In this document: piece after piece, positions 4,349-13,486 of the stretch
Numbering within the stretch: the stretch's first letter is position 1
Layout: every line of letters starts with the position of its first letter
Origin: Deltaproteobacteria bacterium
GTDB taxonomy: Bacteria > Myxococcota > Myxococcia > Myxococcales > Myxococcaceae
DNA length: 13,848 bases
Assembly: GCA_016875515.1 (NCBI GenBank)
Contig: VGRA01000016.1
Span: forward strand, 1 to 13,848
Direction of reading: 5' to 3'
Program-made: the position numbers and the translations under genes
The notes under the pieces: generated by a model
What the model saw: only the letters and a program-made list of their open reading frames with translations
What the model was told of the DNA's origin: nothing
The model's database searches: none

Positions 4349-5044
4349 TCAGACGCGGTGGACGACCTTGCCCGTGGCAATGCGGAACTGCGGCCCCCAC
4401 GTGCCGCGCGCCCCCTCGCGGCCCGCGGCAATCACCATCACCACGCGGCTGCTGCCGTCCACGCCCACCAGCGCCTTCACCCGGTCCTCGTCGAACCCCT
4501 CCATCATGCAGGTGGCGTAGCCCTGCGCAGAGAGCGCGAGCACGAAGTTCTCGCACGCCAGCGCCGCGGACTTGATGGCCACCTCCTGCAAGTCCCGCAG
4601 CGTGTGCGGGGTGCGGGGGACGGGCCTGCGCAGCCCGGCCACCGTGGCGGCCAGCCGCTTGGCAAACCCCAGCGGGCTCGCCAGCCCGAACCGGTAGGAG
4701 GCGGGGATGTAGCTCCGGTAGTAGTCCTTCACCGGCTCCGGCGCGTTCACCCGGTCCACGAAGGAAATCATCTCCGGGTTCGCGCGCTCCCACAGCGCCG
4801 GGTCTGCCGTCACCACCACCAGCTCCGCCGCGGTGCGCGCCGCGGACTGCTTCATGCATGCCTCCACCAGCCCTGCCTTCTTCTCCGGGCTGCGCACCCA
4901 GAAGAAGTCCCATGTCTGCATGTTGGAGGAGTTGGGCGCCAGCACCGCCGCCTCGAAGGCCTGCTCCATCACCGCCTCCGGGATGGGCTCGTCCTTGAAT
5001 TTGCGGATGCTGCGGCGGGCCTTGACGGCATCAAAGAAATCCAT
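4349..5044 (-). CDS. Nitroreductase-family FMN oxidoreductase
   Basis: The 231-residue product has the hallmarks of NAD(P)H-dependent FMN nitroreductases. RRSIRKF (10-16) is the N-terminal FMN-phosphate contact, V-L-A-P-N-S-S-N-M-Q-T-W (34-45) the second flavin segment, and a C-terminal V-V-M-V-I-A-A-G-R-E-G strand the usual end of the fold. The family reduces nitroaromatics, quinones, enones or flavins and normally works as a dimer. The true substrate cannot be read from sequence. The start at ATG 5044 is supported by AAGGAAG (bases 5050-5056 read on the minus strand) 5 bases upstream, one of the clearer ribosome-binding sites here. It follows the Rieske oxygenase by 58 bases, so it could be in the same operon or have its own promoter. 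It might supply reduced flavin or act on the oxygenase product. Confidence 0.9.
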   Translation of the reverse strand: MDFFDAVKARRSIRKFKDEPIPEAVMEQAFEAAVLAPNSSNMQTWDFFWVRSPEKKAGLVEACMKQSAARTAAELVVVTADPALWERANPEMISFVDRVNAPEPVKDYYRSYIPASYRFGLASPLGFAKRLAATVAGLRRPVPRTPHTLRDLQEVAIKSAALACENFVLALSAQGYATCMMEGFDEDRVKALVGVDGSSRVVMVIAAGREGARGTWGPQFRIATGKVVHRV

Positions 5045-5102: not shown

Positions 5103-6251
5103 CTACAGCCAGAACTCGATCTCCCGCGCCATGGGCGCCGGCCCCTCTCCCTCCTGCCCGGAGAGCAGCCACGCCCGGTACGCCTCGATGTCCGCGTGCA
5201 GCAGGTCCGCCTCGGTGGAGGAGAAGGTCACCGGCTCCGGCCCGCTCCGGAGGCCGCGCTGCTGCGTGCCCATGATCTCCACGTCCTGGGTGATGACCTG
5301 CGTCGTGTACCACTTCATCCCGCGGCTCAGCAGCTTCGCCACCGCCCCGCCCGGGGTGTCCACCGCCAGCCGGTAGCTGATGGCCGTGTACACCCAGGTG
5401 TCCGTGGGCCCCACCGGCGTGCACTGGCTGGTGATGACGAAGCCTGCCTTGCCCCAGCCGTAGTCCACGCGCGTGACGTTGGGGACGTAGAACTTGTCGG
5501 TGTGGACCATGTCCTCGCCGAACGGGTTCATCAGCCGCCCCGCCCCGGTGAGCTGGTCCTTCTCCTGTCGGTACGTCACCACCACCGAGCCGTCCCGCCG
5601 CTCCACCGTGGCCGGCACCCGCTTCTGCTCCTTCTCCCGGAACCACCCCCGGTGCACCCACACCGTGTGGGGCACGTCCATGAAGTTCTCCACCAGGTTC
5701 GTCACGCCGTTGGGGAAGCGCGTCACCATGAAGTAGACGGCCCACCCCGGCTCGCCCCAGTGCGGGACGCGGAACGGCTCCTTGCGCGGCGTCTGCCCGG
5801 ATCCTCCCATGAAGACGTAGACCAGCCCGTCCTGCTCCCGCGTGGGGAACGTCTTCAGGCACCCCACCTCCGCGGGCGTCCGGTGCAGGGGCGGCTGCTG
5901 CGCGTCTGCCGCAAAGGCGTGCGGCGCCTGCTGGGAGGGACCCAGGGACGGCACGTTCACGCACCGGCCGGAGCGGTCGTACACCCAGCCGTGGTACGGG
6001 CAGCACAGCTTGCCCCCCCACACCGTGCCCTCGGAGAGCGCCGCCCCGCGGTGCAGGCACCGGTCCCGCACCGCCACGGCCTGACCGGAGGCGTCCCGGT
6101 ACAGCGCCACCTTCACCCCGAACACCGTGCGCCCCAGCGGCTTGTCCCGCCCCAGCTCCCCGGAGAGGCAGGCCACGTACCAATAGTCCTTCAGCGCCCC
6201 GCAGCGCTCCAGGTCTGCCTCGCGCTCCAGGTCCAGGTCCAGGGCCGTCAC
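5103..6251 (-). CDS. Rieske non-heme iron oxygenase, alpha subunit type
   Basis: This is a 382-residue oxygenase with an N-terminal Rieske [2Fe-2S] domain and a C-terminal mononuclear iron domain. The Rieske ligands are Cys65-x-His67 (R-C-L-H-R) and Cys84-x2-His87 (C-C-P-Y-H-G-W). The iron site is NFMDVPHTVWVH with Asp192 as the bridging acid and His195 and His200 as ligands; Asp323 in QDVEIMG is the expected third ligand. Members hydroxylate, demethylate or desaturate with O2 using electrons from a separate reductase, and no ferredoxin or reductase gene is visible here. The length suits a single-component oxygenase (demethylase/PaO-like) rather than one needing a beta subunit. The start is GTG at 6251, only 2 bases after the GH3 stop, with GGGGGAG 8 bases upstream inside the GH3 gene. 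Substrate unknown; a product of the GH3 enzyme or its precursor is a reasonable guess. Confidence 0.93.
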   Translation of the reverse strand: MTALDLDLEREADLERCGALKDYWYVACLSGELGRDKPLGRTVFGVKVALYRDASGQAVAVRDRCLHRGAALSEGTVWGGKLCCPYHGWVYDRSGRCVNVPSLGPSQQAPHAFAADAQQPPLHRTPAEVGCLKTFPTREQDGLVYVFMGGSGQTPRKEPFRVPHWGEPGWAVYFMVTRFPNGVTNLVENFMDVPHTVWVHRGWFREKEQKRVPATVERRDGSVVVTYRQEKDQLTGAGRLMNPFGEDMVHTDKFYVPNVTRVDYGWGKAGFVITSQCTPVGPTDTWVYTAISYRLAVDTPGGAVAKLLSRGMKWYTTQVITQDVEIMGTQQRGLRSGPEPVTFSSTEADLLHADIEAYRAWLLSGQEGEGPAPMAREIEFWL

Positions 6252-6253
6252 CG

Positions 6254-7882
6254 TCAGCGCTCCCCCATCCCCGGCGCCAGCAGCTCGCCGCCGAACACCT
6301 CGTCCCAGCCGTCCCTGCAGTGCAGCGGCGTGGGCTTGATGTCCCCCGCCCGCTGGCCCCGCCGCACGCAGCCCGCTTCATACGCCTGCGCCCCGTCCTT
6401 CACGCGCATGACGTCCACCGCCCCCAGCTGCCCCAGCTCCCGCGCGTAGCGGTAGGGGTGTCCTGCGGCCAGCGCCTGCTCCACCCCCCGCGCCAGCGCC
6501 CGCAGCGCCCCGTCGTCCACGGCCGAGTCCACGTACAGCCGGTAGCGCCGCGTCCCGGCCGTCACCGGCGCCAGCATGGCGAAGCGCGACCGCGCCTTGA
6601 CCTCGCCCAGGGCCGTCTCCACGAAGGTGGCTGCCAGCTTCTCCCCCACGAGGTCGGACACCAGCCCCGCGCGCTCCAGGAAGCGCACGCAGGGCGTGGC
6701 CCGGCAACGCCCTTCCACCTGCACCCGGTCCCCCAACCGGTAGCGCACAAGCCCCGCCCCGGTGGTGAGCACCACTTCGTAGGACTCGCCCTCTTCCAGT
6801 TCATGCGCGAAGTGCGGCCGCCCCGCCGCGTCCAGGAACTCCAGCAGGTGCGAGCGCACCGCCAGCACCGGCGCAGGTGCCCCCACCCACGGCACGGAGA
6901 TGGCCCCCTCCGTGGCGAGCAGCCCCTTGCCCTCCACGGGCACCCCGGGGAAGCGCGCGGTGGCCTCGCCCAGGAATTGCGCCGCGGCAGCGTCCGTCCA
7001 CAGGGAGACCAGCGCCAGGTGCGGCCACGCCTCCGGGAGGGGCAGCGGGCCTGTCCCAGCGGCCAGCTTCCGCAGGGTGCGCGCCCGCTCCGGGTCTGCA
7101 GGCGGGGTCAGCTGCGAAAGGAGCGCCGCGTCCACCGGCCCGCTCCCTGGTGGCGGGGTGAAGCGCCCCTGCTCCAGGTCCTCCAGCAAGGACGGAAGGT
7201 GGGCGTCCAGCGCCTGCACCAGCAGCGTCAGGAACGTGGGGCTCCACACGGACAGGAGCGACAGGTCCTCGCGGGCGAGCAGCCACAGCAGCGTCGCGTA
7301 CCGGCACACCTCCACGCCCGGCAGGTGAGCCACCGCGCCCGGCACCGGCAGGAGCCGCCCCACCAGCGCGCGCGCGGCGCGGGGCAGGTACTCCGTGTCG
7401 TCCTCTGCACCAATGGGCGTCCCGCCACGGGTCACCTGCTTCGCCTGCGCCAGTGGGGAGATGGACCAGTAGGCACAGCCCGCGGCCACCCCCGGCCGGC
7501 GCGCGTACAGGTTCCACAGCCACGGCTGCAGCGCCCGGTTCATCTCCGAGAGGGACGCCCGCGTCATGGGCACCAGCTTCTGAGGGCCGGACGAGCCGCC
7601 GGACCGCTCGAAGCGGACGAGCGGGGAGGTGGACAGCCGCGTCACGTCCCCGTCTGCCACCGCCTCCACGTCTGCCGAGAGCTCGTCCCATCCCCGCAGC
7701 GGCAGCTCCCGCACGTCCTCCATCCGCCTGCACCGGCGGAGCCCCGGCAGCACCGCGCGCAGCCGGGAAAACACCTCCTGCTGGGCCTCGTGGGGGTCCG
7801 AGAGCGCGTGCTCGAACGCGGTGGCCCGCGGCCAGGTGCTTGCCGCGAACGGGTAGGTGAGCGCCTGCACGGGCAGCTTCAC
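6254..7882 (-). CDS. GH3-family acyl-adenylating (acyl acid amido synthetase-like) enzyme
   Basis: The 542-residue product matches GH3 proteins, members of the ANL adenylating superfamily known from plants as enzymes that activate a carboxylic acid with ATP and join it to an amino acid. Visible motifs are the phosphate loop SGGSSGPQK (94-102), LLATEGA (321-327) corresponding to A5, YRLGDRV (381-387) corresponding to A7, and GEKL (413-416) near the hinge. A C-terminal subdomain ends with G-D-I-K-P-T-P-L-H, where Lys516 may play the GH3 C-terminal lysine role. A start at GTG 7882 is favoured: it overlaps the TGA of the upstream membrane gene as GTGA and has GGGGAG 6 bases before it. There is no signal peptide, so the enzyme is cytoplasmic. 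Acid and amine substrates are unknown, and bacterial GH3 proteins are poorly characterised. It is probably co-translated with its neighbours. Confidence 0.9.
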   Translation of the reverse strand: MKLPVQALTYPFAASTWPRATAFEHALSDPHEAQQEVFSRLRAVLPGLRRCRRMEDVRELPLRGWDELSADVEAVADGDVTRLSTSPLVRFERSGGSSGPQKLVPMTRASLSEMNRALQPWLWNLYARRPGVAAGCAYWSISPLAQAKQVTRGGTPIGAEDDTEYLPRAARALVGRLLPVPGAVAHLPGVEVCRYATLLWLLAREDLSLLSVWSPTFLTLLVQALDAHLPSLLEDLEQGRFTPPPGSGPVDAALLSQLTPPADPERARTLRKLAAGTGPLPLPEAWPHLALVSLWTDAAAAQFLGEATARFPGVPVEGKGLLATEGAISVPWVGAPAPVLAVRSHLLEFLDAAGRPHFAHELEEGESYEVVLTTGAGLVRYRLGDRVQVEGRCRATPCVRFLERAGLVSDLVGEKLAATFVETALGEVKARSRFAMLAPVTAGTRRYRLYVDSAVDDGALRALARGVEQALAAGHPYRYARELGQLGAVDVMRVKDGAQAYEAGCVRRGQRAGDIKPTPLHCRDGWDEVFGGELLAPGMGER

Positions 7883-8541
7883 GGCCAGCTCCCCGCCGCC
7901 ACGTACCGCGCCACGAACAGCCCCATCCCCAGCCCCAGCACCCAGTTCCACCGCAGGGTGTTCCGGTTGATGGCCCGGAAATTCTCCGCCTCGTCGTCCG
8001 CGAACCAGACGCCGTCCTGCCCCGTGGTACGTCCTTGCACCGCGTGGAAGAAGGACCAGGCGTGGTGTATCTCCACGCAGAGCGACACCAGCACCAGCCC
8101 GCACAGCCCCAGGGCCCACCAGTCCGCGGGCGAGGAGAGCGCCATCACCTCCCGGGCGTTGGCCCCCAGCACCCCCAGCAGCAGCAGGATGCACGCCACG
8201 TCGTGGCCAATGCCGTACGGCGGCCGCCAGTTGAACGTGCGGTAGAGCATCACCATCTCCACCGCACCGCGCAGCCACATGAAGGCCGCGAAGCTGCCGA
8301 GCGCCCAGCGCAGGACAGGGGACAGGTGCGCCCCGTCCCACGCCACCACCGGGCAGACGATGAACCAGCACCAGATGGCGAACGGGAGCCAGAAGGCCTT
8401 GGGGCGCGAGATGGCCCCGCCCAGCTGGCCGCCGCGCTGCTTGCGGTAGAAGGACACGCCGAAGGCGGCGAGCGCCGGCACCGAGCCCAGGAGCAGCGCG
8501 CGCGCCACCCACGAGGCCTGGGGCTCGGCCCCCCCCGTCAC
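7879..8541 (-). CDS. Six-helix integral membrane protein, unknown function, histidine-rich
   Basis: I do not recognise the family of this 220-residue protein. It has about six hydrophobic segments: residues 13-32, 48-68, 76-98, 110-129, 141-165 and 198-214. Histidines lie in or beside the helices: His113 (G-I-G-H-D-V), His159-His160 after Glu157, and His166. Such an arrangement can bind heme or metals, but no known motif proves it. A conserved-looking loop, W-F-A-D-D-E-A-E-N-F-R-A-I-N-R-N, precedes the last helix. The GTG start at 8541 overlaps the TGA of the big fusion gene and its own TGA overlaps the GTG of the GH3 gene, so it is locked between them as a coupled cistron. It could be a partner of the RnfD-like domain of the upstream gene. 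Confidence 0.75.
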   Translation of the reverse strand: MTGGAEPQASWVARALLLGSVPALAAFGVSFYRKQRGGQLGGAISRPKAFWLPFAIWCWFIVCPVVAWDGAHLSPVLRWALGSFAAFMWLRGAVEMVMLYRTFNWRPPYGIGHDVACILLLLGVLGANAREVMALSSPADWWALGLCGLVLVSLCVEIHHAWSFFHAVQGRTTGQDGVWFADDEAENFRAINRNTLRWNWVLGLGMGLFVARYVAAGSWP

Positions 8542-11351
8542 GGGCGCATCCCCACCGGGGGCGTGGGTTGCTCAACGACGTGCCGCCCGTCCACCGGCAG
8601 CTGCAGCCGGCTCTGGCCGCCGCCCGGCCACTCCACCGTGACGTCCACCGGCCCCTGCGCGCTGCCCAGGCCGAAGTGCAGGCGCGGCTCCCGCTGCGAG
8701 GAGAAACCGCCCAGCAGGTGCTGCTCCTGCCGCGCCGTCACCCGCTCGCCGGACTCATCCGTCCAGCTGACGTTCACCACCGCCCCCACGCCGCGGGTGT
8801 TCTTCCCCTGGCCGCGCAGCTCCAGCTGCACCCAGTGCGCGCCGTCCGGGCGCGATTGCACCAGGTCGCTCCGGTACAGGCTCACCGGGCCGTGCTGGTT
8901 GGTCACCACCGTGTCCAGGTCCCCGTCGTTGTCCAGGTCGGCGAGCAGCACGCCGCGCGAGTTGTCCGGCGTGGACAGGCCCAGCGCGTCTGCCACGTCC
9001 ACGAAGTGGCCCGGCGCGGCCTTTCCCAGGTTGAGGTACGCCCGGCGCTTCTCGTTCGGGTAGATGATGCGCCCGCGCAGGTCCCCCCACATGTCCGCGT
9101 AGGTGTGGACCTCGGGGCCGGACTGCATGAGCTTCTGGTTCACGTACCAGTAGTCCTTCCGCTCGCCATCCGGGATGCGGGCATCCAGCCGGTCATCCAC
9201 CATGCCGTTGGCCTGCACCAGGTCCGGCCACCCGTCGTTGTCCAGGTCCCCGGCCTGGGCCCCCCAGCCGAAGCGGTGCTCGTTGAGCGCCCCGCGCTGC
9301 GTGGCCTCGTCGGTGAAGAGCGGAGTGGACGGGTCTGCCGGGTTGGGCCGCACCATCCACAGCATGCTCCCCTCCGCCTGAAGCCTGTGGTGCACGTTGC
9401 TGACGCTGACGTCCATGTACCCGTTGCGGTCGAAGTCCGCGTGGGTGGCGTTCATGCCCTTGTAGGTGTCATGGCCCACGTCGTTGAACCGGGGGCCGCG
9501 CACGGGGCGGAAGCGCCTCCCGCCCTCGTTGAGCAGCAGCTCGTCCGGCCCGAAGTCGTTCGCCACGTACAGGTCCACGAAGCCGTCGCGGTTGAAGTCC
9601 GCGGTGGTGACCGCGAGCGACCAGCGCGTGGAGGTGAGCCCCACCTCCTCGCCGCGCCGGCGCAGGAACGTCCCATCTCCGCGGTTCTCGTACAGCACCT
9701 GCCCGCCGCCGTTGTTGGCGTCGTGCCAGCCGTCGTGCATGAAGTGGAACATCCGCCGGTCCCCGGCGTGCTCTGGCGCCGGCAGCTTGAAGATGTTGAG
9801 CGGCCGCGGGGGTGCGTAGGCGTTCAGCCAGGGCGAGGTGGCGTTGAGGACCAGCATGTCCAGGTCCCCGTCGTTGTCATGGTCCAGGAACGTGGTGCCC
9901 AGGCTCACCGCGTGCGCCTCCACCCCGGCAGCCCGCGTGACGTCCTGGAACCCAAGCGCACCATCCTCCTTCAGCCGGTTCTGCAGCAGCCGCACCGGGC
10001 CGTAGCCAAAGGGCACCGCCAGGTCCAGGTCCCCGTCCCCGTCGTAGTCCGCGAAGGTGCCGCCGGACGGGACGCCGTCCTGCGCGGGGTGGGCCACCCG
10101 CCCGGCCAGCGCCGGGATGGGGAAGCGCGTGAAGGTGAAGGGCTTGCCCTCGGAGAGCCCGTTGAGGAAGAGCGCAGCGCGGTCCTGGGGTGACTTCATC
10201 GTGTTGCTCAGGAACAGGTCCAGGTCCCCGTCGCCGTCCACGTCCCCCGCGGCCACCGCGTCCCCCACGGACAGCAGCCACTTGCCCACGTGCTGCAGCC
10301 GCGGGTCGACTTCCTCCAGCAGCGTGCCCATGCTGCTTCCCAGTCCTGCCGCCTTCGCGTCCACCTGCGCCATGCGGAAGCCCGGCTCGCGCGTCAGCCC
10401 CCCGTCACGTGACGTGGCCCACGCCACCCCGGCGTAGGCCAGCGCCACCCCCGCCACGGCCGCCACCGCCCGCCCCTTGGGCCAGGCCCAACCGTCCTTC
10501 CGCAGCTTGCGCGCGTGCAGGTACAGGAAGCGCGCCGTGCCCACCGCCAGCGCCGCGTAGAAGAAGGTGTAGACGCTCTCCTTGAAGTGCAGCACCAGGT
10601 CCACCGCCGCCACGCAGAAGGCGATGAAGACCTGCATCTTCGGGTCTGCCGGCGAGGTGCCCGGGTCCGTCAGCATGTACAGCGTGAAGAGGAAGAACGG
10701 CGGCGTGGTGAGCGTGCCGATGAACAGCATCTCCGGCGGCAGGTGGTGCCGCATCACGTAGGCCCGGATGGCCGTGTTGAGGACGTAGAAGAGCAGGAAG
10801 CTCCCCACCAGCCACCCCCTCCCCACCCGGAACACGAACAGCATCAGCCCCAGCGTCAGGACGAAGAAGCTGACCGTCAGCGACGAGCCCGCCCACTGGT
10901 ACGCCGGCGCCGCAGTGATGAGCTCCTGCCCCACCAGCAGCGAGGTGGCCACCCCGAACATGGACGGGTTGAAGAAGTGCCGCCCGTTGAGCGTGATCAG
11001 GTGCTTGCTGCCGATGGTGAGCAGCACCGGCAGGAAGAGGATGGCGCTGTGCTTGGAGTAGTTGAGGAGGATTGCCAGCGACGTGCAGGAGATCCACGCC
11101 GACAGCGGCAGCACCTTCTGCCCCCGCGTCCACCAGGTCAGCGCCACGTCCATCAGCGCCCCGGAGGCCACGATGAAGAGCATCTGCCCCGGCGTCCGGT
11201 TGAAGCCGAAGAAGAGGAATCCCAGCACGCAGTAGAGCCCCAGCACCGCGGCAAAGGGCCAGCGTGGGTCGTTCCGGGCGGGAATGGTCCACCCCTCGAA
11301 GAGGCCCTGGCGGCCCGGTGGCGCGGGCACTGCGGTCATGGCGACGGACAT
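8538..11351 (-). CDS. UnbU-like (RnfD/NqrB-type) membrane domain fused to FG-GAP repeats and ASPIC/UnbV domain
   Basis: The 937-residue protein has two halves. Residues 30-311 hold about ten to eleven hydrophobic segments of the RnfD/NqrB/UnbU type, with F-F-N-P-S-M-F-G (126-133) and a T-L-T-T-P-P...L-T-D-P-G-T-S-P stretch (213-234). In RnfD/NqrB this area carries the threonine that binds FMN covalently, but the canonical S-G-A-T core is not seen. After about 330 come seven D-x-D/N-x-D/N-G-x-x-D calcium-type loops starting at 370, 435, 490, 585, 639, 702 and 805, as in FG-GAP/VCBS beta-propellers of CRTAC1-like proteins. Residues 840-925 form an ASPIC/UnbV domain with L-H-F-G-L-G (891-896) and V-E-W-P-G (906-910). 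The propeller half should lie outside the cytoplasm. UnbU and UnbV are named as separate accessory proteins of enediyne clusters; here they are one chain. The ATG at 11351 has no Shine-Dalgarno; Met5 is an alternative. It is the first gene of the minus-strand run. Confidence 0.9.
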   Translation of the reverse strand: MSVAMTAVPAPPGRQGLFEGWTIPARNDPRWPFAAVLGLYCVLGFLFFGFNRTPGQMLFIVASGALMDVALTWWTRGQKVLPLSAWISCTSLAILLNYSKHSAILFLPVLLTIGSKHLITLNGRHFFNPSMFGVATSLLVGQELITAAPAYQWAGSSLTVSFFVLTLGLMLFVFRVGRGWLVGSFLLFYVLNTAIRAYVMRHHLPPEMLFIGTLTTPPFFLFTLYMLTDPGTSPADPKMQVFIAFCVAAVDLVLHFKESVYTFFYAALAVGTARFLYLHARKLRKDGWAWPKGRAVAAVAGVALAYAGVAWATSRDGGLTREPGFRMAQVDAKAAGLGSSMGTLLEEVDPRLQHVGKWLLSVGDAVAAGDVDGDGDLDLFLSNTMKSPQDRAALFLNGLSEGKPFTFTRFPIPALAGRVAHPAQDGVPSGGTFADYDGDGDLDLAVPFGYGPVRLLQNRLKEDGALGFQDVTRAAGVEAHAVSLGTTFLDHDNDGDLDMLVLNATSPWLNAYAPPRPLNIFKLPAPEHAGDRRMFHFMHDGWHDANNGGGQVLYENRGDGTFLRRRGEEVGLTSTRWSLAVTTADFNRDGFVDLYVANDFGPDELLLNEGGRRFRPVRGPRFNDVGHDTYKGMNATHADFDRNGYMDVSVSNVHHRLQAEGSMLWMVRPNPADPSTPLFTDEATQRGALNEHRFGWGAQAGDLDNDGWPDLVQANGMVDDRLDARIPDGERKDYWYVNQKLMQSGPEVHTYADMWGDLRGRIIYPNEKRRAYLNLGKAAPGHFVDVADALGLSTPDNSRGVLLADLDNDGDLDTVVTNQHGPVSLYRSDLVQSRPDGAHWVQLELRGQGKNTRGVGAVVNVSWTDESGERVTARQEQHLLGGFSSQREPRLHFGLGSAQGPVDVTVEWPGGGQSRLQLPVDGRHVVEQPTPPVGMRP
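8911..10245 (-). repeat. Degenerate DNA repeat encoding calcium-type loops
   Basis: Within the fusion gene, near-identical segments built on gtccaggtccccgtcgttg recur, with clear copies near 8914, 9858, 10023 and 10217 and a related one near 9235. They code for the D-L-D-N-D-G-D-L-D type loops. The similarity follows partly from the protein motif and GC-biased codon use, but the long shared stretches could permit recombination between repeats. Confidence 0.5.
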
Positions 11352-11402
11352 GGATGCACAGCTTAGCGAAGTCGACGGACCGTGTGCGAGGGAGGTAGAC
11401 CC
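11352..11402. promoter_or_regulatory. Divergent 51-base promoter region
   Basis: These 51 bases separate the UnbU-UnbV fusion gene (minus) from the GNAT gene (plus) and must hold at least part of the control of both, unless promoters lie inside the genes. On the minus strand TAAGCT (11365-11360) fits the TANNNT pattern 8 bases before the ATG, the placement seen for leaderless transcripts. On the plus strand GGAGGT occupies 11391-11396. A small palindrome, ACGG-A-CCGT, lies at 11375-11383. No convincing -35 box or sigma-54 site was found. Confidence 0.4.
11391..11396 (+). promoter_or_regulatory. Shine-Dalgarno GGAGGT of the GNAT gene
   Basis: GGAGGT ends 6 bases before the ATG at 11403, an ideal spacing. 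It fixes the start of the acetyltransferase at 11403 instead of the in-frame GTG at 11382, which lies upstream of this site. Confidence 0.8.
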
Positions 11403-12575
11403 ATGCCACGCATGGGTGACCGAAAGAACGCTCCGGGCTTCGATGAGATCCGCTCACGCGTCCGGCTGGCCGGCCGGGAGGACGGTCCCTGGCTCACCGA
11501 GCTGATGGCCCACGTGCCCATGGAGGGCTCGCTCGTTCTCTCCACGCGCAGGGATCCTGACTTCTTCGGGCTCTACGACTTGCAGCGCGGCGTGGCGGAG
11601 TCCTTCGTCTACGACGACCCGTCCTTCTCCGGGGTTGGCAGCTCCATCGTCCGGGACGGCTGGCTGGGGGGAGGGAAGCAGAAGGTCGGCTACCTGGGGG
11701 ACATGCGGCTGCGGGGCACCGGCCGCGCGCGGCGGCACTTCCCGGCGCTCTTCGGCCACTTCTTCGAGGCGCACGCGGCGCGCACCGGCTGTGAGGACTT
11801 CTACACCGCGGTGCTCGCGCACAACGCGCTGGCCCTGCAGTCGCTCGTCCGGCGGGGCAAGAAGGCGCGCGCGGACCAGCCGTACTACCACCTGCTGCGA
11901 ACCTACCAGATGGCCTCGGTGCAACTGCTCCTGCCTCGGCGCGTGCGCGTGCCCTCGGGCCTCTTCGTGCAGTCCGCCACGGCCGCGGACGTGCCCGCGC
12001 TCGCCGCCTTCCTGCACGCGGACCACCAGCAGCGCCCGTTCGGCTACTGCTTCGACGACGGGGAGCTGGAGCACCGGCTCGCCCGTTGGCCGGGCTTCAC
12101 GCTGGAGGACACGCTGGTCGCTCGCGCGGACGGGGGGCGCATCGTGGGCTGCTGCACGCTGTGGGACGTGTCCCCGGTGAAGCGCTACCGCGTGGTGCGC
12201 TACGGCGGCGCCATGAAGGTGGCCCGCCTGGCGGTGGCGGCCGCCTCCACCGTGCTCGGCTGTCCACGCCTGCCCGCACAAGGGGAGGACTTCCGCGGGC
12301 TGTACATGACCAACCTGTCGGTCGAGCAGGACAACCCGGTGGTGCTGCGCGCGCTGCTGGAGGCGGGCTACGCGCGCGCGTGGGAGGCGCGCGCGCAGCT
12401 GCTCTCGCTGCCGCTGTACGACGGCCCTGGCGGCGCGCCGGATCCGCTCTCCCCTGCGCTCCGCGGTTTCCTGGTGCAGCGGCTCCCGTTTCACCTGTAC
12501 GGCGTCACCCGCAGCGCACGGGCCCGCACCGAGTGGCCGGAAGGCCGGCCGGGCTTCGAGATGGCGCTCGCTTGA
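11403..12575 (+). CDS. GNAT-family acyltransferase, probable double-domain
   Basis: The 390-residue product looks like two GNAT folds in tandem. In the first (about 18-165), V-G-Y-L-G-D-M-R-L (95-103) followed by RGTGRARRHF (104-113) matches the strand and acyl-CoA pyrophosphate loop (R/Q-x-x-G-x-G/A), and A-H-N-A-L-A-L-Q-S-L (139-148) is the usual end-of-fold segment. The second (about 186-340) starts S-A-T-A-A-D-V-P-A-L and ends with LSVEQDNPVVLRALLEAGY (305-323), a typical C-terminal GNAT element; its CoA loop is less clear, so it may be non-catalytic. Members move an acyl group from acyl-CoA to an amine; the acceptor is unknown. Start ATG 11403 is supported by GGAGGT. The gene is divergent from the UnbU-UnbV operon and 20 bases before the solute-binding-like gene, with which it probably forms an operon. 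Confidence 0.75.
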   Translation: MPRMGDRKNAPGFDEIRSRVRLAGREDGPWLTELMAHVPMEGSLVLSTRRDPDFFGLYDLQRGVAESFVYDDPSFSGVGSSIVRDGWLGGGKQKVGYLGDMRLRGTGRARRHFPALFGHFFEAHAARTGCEDFYTAVLAHNALALQSLVRRGKKARADQPYYHLLRTYQMASVQLLLPRRVRVPSGLFVQSATAADVPALAAFLHADHQQRPFGYCFDDGELEHRLARWPGFTLEDTLVARADGGRIVGCCTLWDVSPVKRYRVVRYGGAMKVARLAVAAASTVLGCPRLPAQGEDFRGLYMTNLSVEQDNPVVLRALLEAGYARAWEARAQLLSLPLYDGPGGAPDPLSPALRGFLVQRLPFHLYGVTRSARARTEWPEGRPGFEMALA

Positions 12576-12595: not shown

Positions 12596-13486
12596 ATGGC
12601 CCTCCAGCACCTCCACGTCCGCTTCCTCCGTTTCTCCGCCTTCTACGCGCCGCTGCTGCTGGCGCTGGAGGAGGAGCGGCTCGCCGCCGCGGGGCTCGCC
12701 GCCACGTTCGACAAGGTGACGCCCGAGCGCACCAACGAGGCGGGGCTGCGGGATGGGACGGTGCAGGTGGCGCAGTCGGCCACTGCGGTCAGCTTTGCCC
12801 CCGTGCTGCGCGGCGAGGTGCCGGTGTACCGCCACTTCGCGGTGATGAACCTGCGGGACGGCCTCTTCCTCGCGGCCAGGGACCGCGCGGAGCCGTTCAG
12901 CTGGAAGTCGCTGGAGGGGAGGTCGGTGCTGGTGGACCACTTCTTCCAGCCGCTGGCGCTCTTCCGCACCGCGCTCCGGCTGCAGGGCGTGGACGCATCG
13001 CGCGTGACCTTCGTGGACGCGGGGGACCCCGCCGGCATCGAGGCGGCCTTCAGGGAGGGGAGGGGGGACTTCTTCCACATGCAGGGGCCCGTCCCGCAGC
13101 AGATGGAGGAGGAGGGGCTGTGCCGCGTGGTGGCCATGGTGGGCGAGGCCACCGGGGACCTGGCCTTCAGCACGCTGTGCGCCCGGCCCGAGTGGCTCCA
13201 GACGGAGGTGGCCCGTGCGTTCATGGGCGTCTTCCGCAAGGCCCGCGCGGACGCGCAGCGGACGGAGCCCTCCGCCCTGGCGGCCCGGCTCGCCCCGTTC
13301 CTCCCGGGCAGCAGCGTCACTGCGCTCGCGGCCACCCTGGGGGCCTACCAGCGCATGGGCACCTGGACGGGCGACGAGCGGCTCACCCCCGCGCTGTATG
13401 ACCGCACGGTGCAGGTGTTCCGGGAGGTCGGCTCGCTCGCCTCCACGCCGGACATGTCCGAGGTGGTGGCGGCGTTCCCGGAGTAG
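12596..13486 (+). CDS. NMT1/SsuA-like substrate-binding-fold protein without export signal
   Basis: The 296-residue product resembles ABC-type nitrate/sulfonate/thiamine-precursor binding proteins (NMT1/SsuA/THI5 group). RFSAFYAPLLLALEE (12-26) is the first strand and helix where these proteins begin to contact ligand; VQVAQSATAVSFAPVLRGE (56-74) is the second conserved segment; SLEGRSVLVDHFFQPLALF (105-123) is the inter-domain region with the start of the second lobe. Known binding proteins are exported, but here the N-terminus enters the fold by residue 8 with no signal peptide, so the protein should be cytoplasmic. No permease or ATPase gene is next to it. The cysteine cluster of THI5 HMP-P synthase is absent (only Cys176 and Cys195), so that enzyme is unlikely. 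It may be a sensor or a metabolic enzyme of the same fold. AGAGGA lies 11 bases before the ATG. Confidence 0.65.
   Translation: MALQHLHVRFLRFSAFYAPLLLALEEERLAAAGLAATFDKVTPERTNEAGLRDGTVQVAQSATAVSFAPVLRGEVPVYRHFAVMNLRDGLFLAARDRAEPFSWKSLEGRSVLVDHFFQPLALFRTALRLQGVDASRVTFVDAGDPAGIEAAFREGRGDFFHMQGPVPQQMEEEGLCRVVAMVGEATGDLAFSTLCARPEWLQTEVARAFMGVFRKARADAQRTEPSALAARLAPFLPGSSVTALAATLGAYQRMGTWTGDERLTPALYDRTVQVFREVGSLASTPDMSEVVAAFPE

Follow-up and report, generated by a model that had tools for sequence, protein, structure and literature searches.

The UnbU-UnbV fusion, the six-helix membrane protein, the GH3-family enzyme and the Rieske oxygenase encoded side by side in the window, as we call the whole 13,848-nucleotide stretch of DNA analysed, behave as one evolutionary unit, a conclusion supported by their co-occurrence beyond chance across Myxococcota genomes. 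The best explanation of this module is the synthesis of an acyl-amide with a membrane-linked oxidation, the product being perhaps exported, and we give this reading a probability of about one half. The window is one contig of a draft genome from Myxococcota that is fragmented into 904 contigs (3.9 Mb, 87% complete), and its four genes are all co-directional on the minus strand, the order of transcription being UnbUV, 6TM, GH3 and Rieske. The features that matter here are:

8538 to 11351, minus strand: UnbU-UnbV fusion (UnbUV, P0001), 937 aa, intact open reading frame
7879 to 8541, minus strand: six-helix membrane protein (6TM, P0002), 220 aa, no known family
6254 to 7882, minus strand: GH3-family acyl-adenylating amide synthetase (P0003), 542 aa
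5103 to 6251, minus strand: Rieske non-haem iron oxygenase (P0004), 382 aa, with Rieske and VanA_C domains
11412 to 12575, plus strand: P7 (P0007), tandem-GNAT acyltransferase-like protein, 387 aa, alternative start at 11382, divergent from UnbUV
4349 to 5044: nitroreductase, its start 58 bases past the Rieske stop
12596 to 13486: NMT1/THI5-like substrate-binding protein (P0008), directly downstream of P7

The four reading frames are open at these coordinates, and the junctions, read directly, agree with the compact layout described in the earlier note: the same 4-base overlap, GTGA, joins UnbUV to 6TM and 6TM to GH3, and 2 bases separate GH3 from the Rieske gene. The nitroreductase also lies where that note had placed it, but as a member of the unit it falls away, with no relative in 20 neighbour regions and one in 80 cross-phylum loci; it is outside the gene set. 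For the NMT1/THI5-like P0008, no protein match was found in the 20 neighbour regions around 6TM relatives. At positions 1 to 1095 of the window, a C-terminal fragment of an adenylate/guanylate cyclase on the plus strand (profile positions 97 to 182 of 183) abuts a piece of a flavin amine oxidase on the minus strand that is without its N-terminal part (profile positions 178 to 384 of 443); the two truncated genes stand head to head with the joint near 600 to 815, and have the look of a joint made by the assembly or of an old rearrangement.

Each of the four proteins was searched against 195 Myxococcota genomes, orthologues being accepted at 700 bits or more for UnbUV, at 380 or more for the Rieske protein, at 100 or more for 6TM (or as fragments, in G082 and G085), and for GH3 at 430 or more, or at 160 or more with at least 43% identity; the best candidates scored per genome were the top 4 for UnbUV, the top 7 for GH3 and up to 9 for Rieske. 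The counts leave out two candidates, a 6TM match in G016 that is weak (28%, 49 bits) and the GH3 of G053, which is 38% identical. Orthologues of UnbUV were found in 56 genomes, of 6TM in 55, all of which also have UnbUV, of Rieske in 55 and of GH3 in 60. All four genes are present in 54 of the 195 genomes, or 53 if we leave out G018, which is counted although its UnbUV, at 46% identity, comes no closer than the second, module-free copies in G099 and G101, at 47%. Partial sets are limited to seven genomes, namely G140 without GH3 and Rieske (86% complete), G080 without 6TM, and five with GH3 alone. Pairwise co-occurrence gives p values between 4.5e-40 and 3.7e-48, which ignore phylogeny. The distribution is patchy even within the largest genus, where 15 of 27 genomes carry all four genes and in the other 12 UnbUV, 6TM and the Rieske orthologue are all absent. 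Corallococcus, Archangium gephyra and Cystobacter fuscus appear by name among the relatives, and the nearest relatives from metagenomes, P0165 and P0166, have identities of 88 and 80%.

In 43 of the 54 four-gene genomes the starts of UnbUV, GH3 and Rieske lie within 5.7 kb, and in 41 of these clustered genomes, the 43 for which gene distances were measured, 6TM is on the same contig within 6 kb of UnbUV. In the other 11 (four of genus g4, six of g26, and G018) the genes are not in one cluster; all four of them are spread over about 100 kb of one contig in G069, and G018 has a GNAT gene, GH3 and Rieske side by side, with UnbUV at another place. Tight operon coupling is thus not required. The earlier note had read the four genes as one unit and had named scattering in relatives as the evidence against it; scattering does occur in these 11 genomes, yet the genes are co-inherited there too, so that what stands is a unit in the evolutionary sense, by co-occurrence, and not one of strict linkage.

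The gene order of the window is not the usual one in relatives. Of the regions around 6TM relatives, 20 were read; UnbUV, GH3 and Rieske are present in 14 of them, and in six the 6TM gene stands without these three. In 13 of the 14, 6TM and UnbUV are transcribed divergently, and in all 14 a gene of approximately 230 to 257 aa intervenes between UnbUV and GH3. The one clustered region with co-directional 6TM, L071 from G186 of another family, has the order UnbUV-6TM-GNAT-GH3-Rieske, and the window GH3 is placed beside its GH3 in the tree (support 99/96); beyond the 14, co-directional arrangements were seen in L115, L116 and L119. The exact order UnbUV-6TM-GH3-Rieske without GNAT occurs, among the regions read, in the window only. 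The intervening genes form a tight family, one member of which scores just above the Pfam GNAT cut-off and another of which is without a match. A GNAT gene is present in 13 of 15 module-bearing genomes tested, the exceptions, G000 and G140, both being less than 88% complete; none lies between UnbUV and GH3 in the window operon, and none was found in the 87%-complete genome to which the window belongs. Here the GNAT step may therefore fall to P7 or to an enzyme encoded elsewhere, or may have been lost.

P7 belongs to the set as well. A search that scored up to 65 candidates per genome found its relatives in each of the 25 module genomes examined but in none of five without the module; the distance was measured in 13 genomes, and in 12 of them, among these that of the window, P7 is on the contig of the module, 2.9 to 20.1 kb away. 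The four genes listed originally do belong together, then, but as the whole unit that list fell short, having missed the GNAT gene and P7 (11412 to 12575). The window P7 has no Pfam match, and Acetyltransf_1 is recognised by Pfam in 6 of 20 members of its family; judged by its AF2 model (pLDDT 89.6), it is a tandem GNAT, the Foldseek matches including the tandem GNAT MAB_4324 and N-myristoyltransferases, with an E value of 5.3e-12 to a tandem GNAT. The likeness lies in the predicted double GNAT fold, and P7 is only 9 to 15% identical to these proteins in the listed matches. GNAT folds also acetylate small polar substrates.

The 6TM protein of the window has no Pfam or NCBIfam match; its predicted structure consists of six long helices (pLDDT 92), in keeping with the six-helix protein described before, and Q35, K48, R91, E95, H113, D114 and E157 are invariant in 18 aligned sequences. 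A member of the desaturase family FA_desaturase precedes the 6TM gene in 8 of the 20 regions (checked with Pfam on two). In L115 the 6TM gene is followed by an alpha/beta hydrolase gene, and in L079 a GRAS-domain protein (1005 to 2114) is encoded beside CinA-like and SpoIIAA-like genes, a few kb from 6TM; GRAS-domain proteins are best known from plants, and members of the family of this one are encoded in 5 of the 20 regions.

When species genomes were scanned with the GNAT alignment, 566 relatives were found and the best 80 examined; L111, L112, L117 and L189 among these loci are sources of rows of the query alignment. Near the GNAT gene of these best 80 of 566 lie GH3 in at least 58 loci, Rieske in at least 53, P7 in at least 32, UnbUV in at least 20, 6TM in at least 7, AurF-like proteins in at least 20, ferredoxin in at least 20 and radical SAM enzymes in at least 7. 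No GH3 was seen in 22 of the 80 within the DNA covered; a good number of the loci stop at contig ends, and a gene scored as absent may lie beyond them, so that the counts above are lower bounds. The oxidative part varies, consisting of UnbUV with Rieske, of AurF-like, diiron and ferredoxin proteins with Rieske, or of radical SAM enzymes. When the loci were typed by gene calls, P7 was found in none of the 23 AurF/diiron loci, and AurF-like, diiron and hexapeptide families in none of the 20 UnbUV loci, a type present in Myxococcota, Bdellovibrionota, Gammaproteobacteria and Gemmatimonadota. In a tree of 57 GH3 rows (L117 and L091 being the same gene, and 73 of the 80 loci typed), all 20 AurF/diiron-type rows fall in one clade (100/100), outside of which UnbUV, radical SAM and minimal types are intermixed, as expected if the oxidative part has been exchanged around a lasting core. 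The minimal clusters are exemplified by GNAT-GH3-P7-HlyD-MFS in Pseudomonas segetis (L160) and by GNAT-GH3-P7, a protein with a sub-threshold PapA_C match and HlyD in Alcanivorax (L178). The best reading is that UnbUV-type clusters are part of a cross-phylum biosynthetic family whose core, the N-acyltransferase-like GNAT protein and the GH3 ligase, is a pair for acyl transfer and amide formation, often joined by P7. The AurF-type loci (L092, L094, L134 and others), found in Bdellovibrionota, Gammaproteobacteria and others, share a conserved cluster of genes for several Rieske oxygenases, an AurF-like protein, a ferritin-like diiron protein, ferredoxin, FA_hydroxylase, a hexapeptide protein and an SDR besides GNAT and GH3, and are probably a separate undescribed pathway.

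In the mechanism that we propose, GH3 would activate with ATP a fatty, or fatty-acid-derived, carboxylate and join it to an amine, of which an amino acid is the most likely. One or two further acyl transfers would be made by GNAT and P7, and oxidation of the acyl part would fall to the Rieske oxygenase, together in some relatives with a fatty-acid desaturase. UnbUV and 6TM would hold the oxidation step at the membrane, where UnbU may act as an RnfD-fold partner, either electron relay or substrate platform, and UnbV would be a calcium-binding propeller, probably outside; the product would probably be exported. A lipid-type substrate is suggested by the desaturase genes, by FA_hydroxylase, which Pfam also finds among the neighbouring genes of relatives, and by the resemblance of the P7 double GNAT fold to N-myristoyltransferase, and export by HlyD and MFS in L160, HlyD in L178 and, in L079, a MatE gene between Rieske and P7. 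The working model of the earlier note, an acyl-amide-like product with a redox step tied to the membrane, agrees with what the clusters of several phyla contain. What the data show directly is the gene content, the homologies, the intact motifs of catalysis, the co-inheritance and the linkage across phyla, and the enzyme classes follow from these tests; the fatty substrate, the amine, the order of steps, the membrane coupling and export we infer with OlsH as a guide, and we infer the role and topology of UnbUV as well. Against the model stand the lack of GNAT in the window operon, the 11 of 54 genomes with scattered genes and the six regions with 6TM but not the other three, the 22 of 80 GNAT loci in which no GH3 was seen, the score of GH3 far below the OlsH cut-off, the small polar substrates that GNAT folds can also acetylate, and the apparent loss in UnbU of the flavin-bearing stretch of RnfD.

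The GH3 evidence bears on the nearest rival. The window protein matches the N, M and C domains of GH3 in Pfam with 88.8, 52.9 and 25.6 bits (cut-off 23.6 each), and its three nucleotide-binding motifs, tested against the description in PMC12493201, are intact; among 57 aligned GH3s, K is conserved in 56 and G, T, E, R, Y and D in all 57. OlsH, a characterised bacterial GH3, forms N-acyl ornithine with ATP, according to that paper (PMC12493201), and this precedent, together with the membrane proteins of the set and the desaturase and FA_hydroxylase neighbours, would suit an ornithine-lipid-like pathway for a membrane lipid, in which GNAT and P7 correspond to OlsB/OlsA-type enzymes and GH3 to OlsH, the oxygenase and desaturase tuning the lipid. 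We consider this rather unlikely, since the module is patchy within one genus (15 of 27 genomes), efflux-type genes occur at some loci, of which few neighbours are annotated, and the window GH3 scores 17.2 bits against the OlsH equivalog NF052613 with its cut-off of 620; by this curated NCBIfam model it is not OlsH, and the substrates of OlsH are thus not transferable.

The name given to the fusion is borne out by homology. UnbUV consists of an RnfD-like membrane domain of about residues 1 to 330 (10362 to 11351), followed by FG-GAP repeats with seven DxDxDG-like motifs and a C-terminal UnbV_ASPIC domain, both of the latter found by Pfam search; its UnbU part has no Pfam match. A family profile of 18 UnbU members matches the solved RnfD chain 8ahx_D (E 3.4e-10), NCBIfam rnfD matches 13 of the 18 aligned members, the window member not among them, and UnbU is 31% identical over 199 columns to an 'Enediyne biosynthesis protein' of Salinispora tropica; some UnbUV relatives carry the JGI name 'enediyne biosynthesis protein E4'. 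G099 and G101 have, outside the module, a further UnbUV fusion of 47% identity (L095, L096 and L097), and G018 has no copy above 700 bits but the one of 46% identity. UnbU shares with RnfD/NqrB a homologous membrane domain and the NP and TDPxTSP motifs; it differs in that the alignment passes from profile position 132 to 153 while the chain runs from 135 to 220, so that RnfD residues 136 to 219 are replaced by some 20 residues. As this is the stretch in which we take the threonine with the covalent flavin of RnfD to sit, UnbU seems to be without the flavin-bearing segment, and an electron-transfer role is weakened and doubtful. No other Rnf or Nqr subunit was found among the Pfam-searched proteins of the window.

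It is in this light that UnbUV may be considered as the electron donor of the Rieske oxygenase, taking the place of the 2Fe-2S ferredoxin of AurF-type clusters. The RnfD/NqrB homology speaks for such a role, as does the finding that ferredoxin and UnbUV, each at 20 of the best 80 of 566 loci, never occur together; still, we regard it as unlikely, given the apparent loss of the segment taken as flavin-bearing, the occurrence of at least ten Rieske loci with neither UnbUV nor ferredoxin in the DNA covered (L117, L122, L124, L131, L136, L144, L147, L152, L153 and L158) and the 11 of 54 genomes in which UnbUV and Rieske lie outside one tight cluster.

The Rieske protein itself, with its Rieske and VanA_C domains assigned by Pfam, has its ligand motifs intact, the Cys-His-Cys-His cluster ligands (CxH..CxxH) and the Asn-Asp-His-His mononuclear-iron motif each being conserved in 22 of 22 aligned sequences. 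Its best solved relative by sequence, dicamba O-demethylase (3gb4), and its best-scoring NCBIfam model, 4beta-methylsterol monooxygenase (78 bits, cut-off 600), would suit a pathway that degrades or detoxifies some hydrophobic carboxylic acid, be it a resin acid, an aromatic acid or one akin to sterols, with GH3 as acyl-adenylating ligase and the Rieske enzyme as demethylase or hydroxylase; such a function is poorly compatible with two acyltransferase-fold proteins conserved with GH3 and with efflux-type genes beside the minimal clusters, seen among the minority of neighbours that were annotated, and we judge it quite improbable. That the operon joins adjacent genes of unrelated function by chance, as the scattering in 11 of 54 genomes might suggest, is highly implausible in view of the co-occurrence p values (4.5e-40 to 3.7e-48, ignoring phylogeny) and of a linkage repeated in other phyla.

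Set against known systems, the proposed acyl-amide module resembles OlsH-OlsI of Singulisphaera, in which GH3 couples a fatty acid to an amine and an acyl transfer is encoded in the cluster; it differs in that OlsI is an alpha/beta hydrolase instead of a GNAT fold, and UnbUV, Rieske and P7-like partners are not mentioned for OlsH-OlsI in the available portions of the source (PMC12493201). With the enediyne proteins the likeness extends to both parts of the fusion, the 31% identity of UnbU to the S. tropica protein and the UnbV_ASPIC domain, which also occurs outside enediyne clusters. UnbU and UnbV, which belong to the warhead genes of the enediyne cassette, are here fused into one protein, and no polyketide synthase was found among the searched proteins of the 13.8-kb contig; to our knowledge, the function of both in enediyne synthesis is unresolved. 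A biosynthetic cluster with a GH3 amide synthetase is of a known kind, and the gene set with its UnbUV partner is not described in the literature searched, where no description of the module was found and whose coverage left most subscription journals and all preprints outside.

We would suggest, tentatively and as a possibility short of a favoured one, that GNAT and GH3 define an undescribed cross-phylum class of acyl-amide pathways with exchangeable oxidation units, in which UnbU-UnbV is a general, membrane-bound partner for acyl-chain oxidation that enediyne pathways have recruited. If this is true, UnbUV takes the place that the diiron/ferredoxin set or radical SAM enzymes have in sister clusters, so that the enediyne role of UnbU and UnbV could be solved in a polyketide-free system. 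In myxobacterial genomes the UnbUV fusion is tied by co-inheritance to a few enzymes with recognisable chemistry, which, together with the UnbUV-free sister clusters of Pseudomonas and Alcanivorax, makes its role testable by gene removal and mass spectrometry; the module would also give the GH3 enzymes, widespread in bacteria, a second functional context beside that of ornithine lipids.
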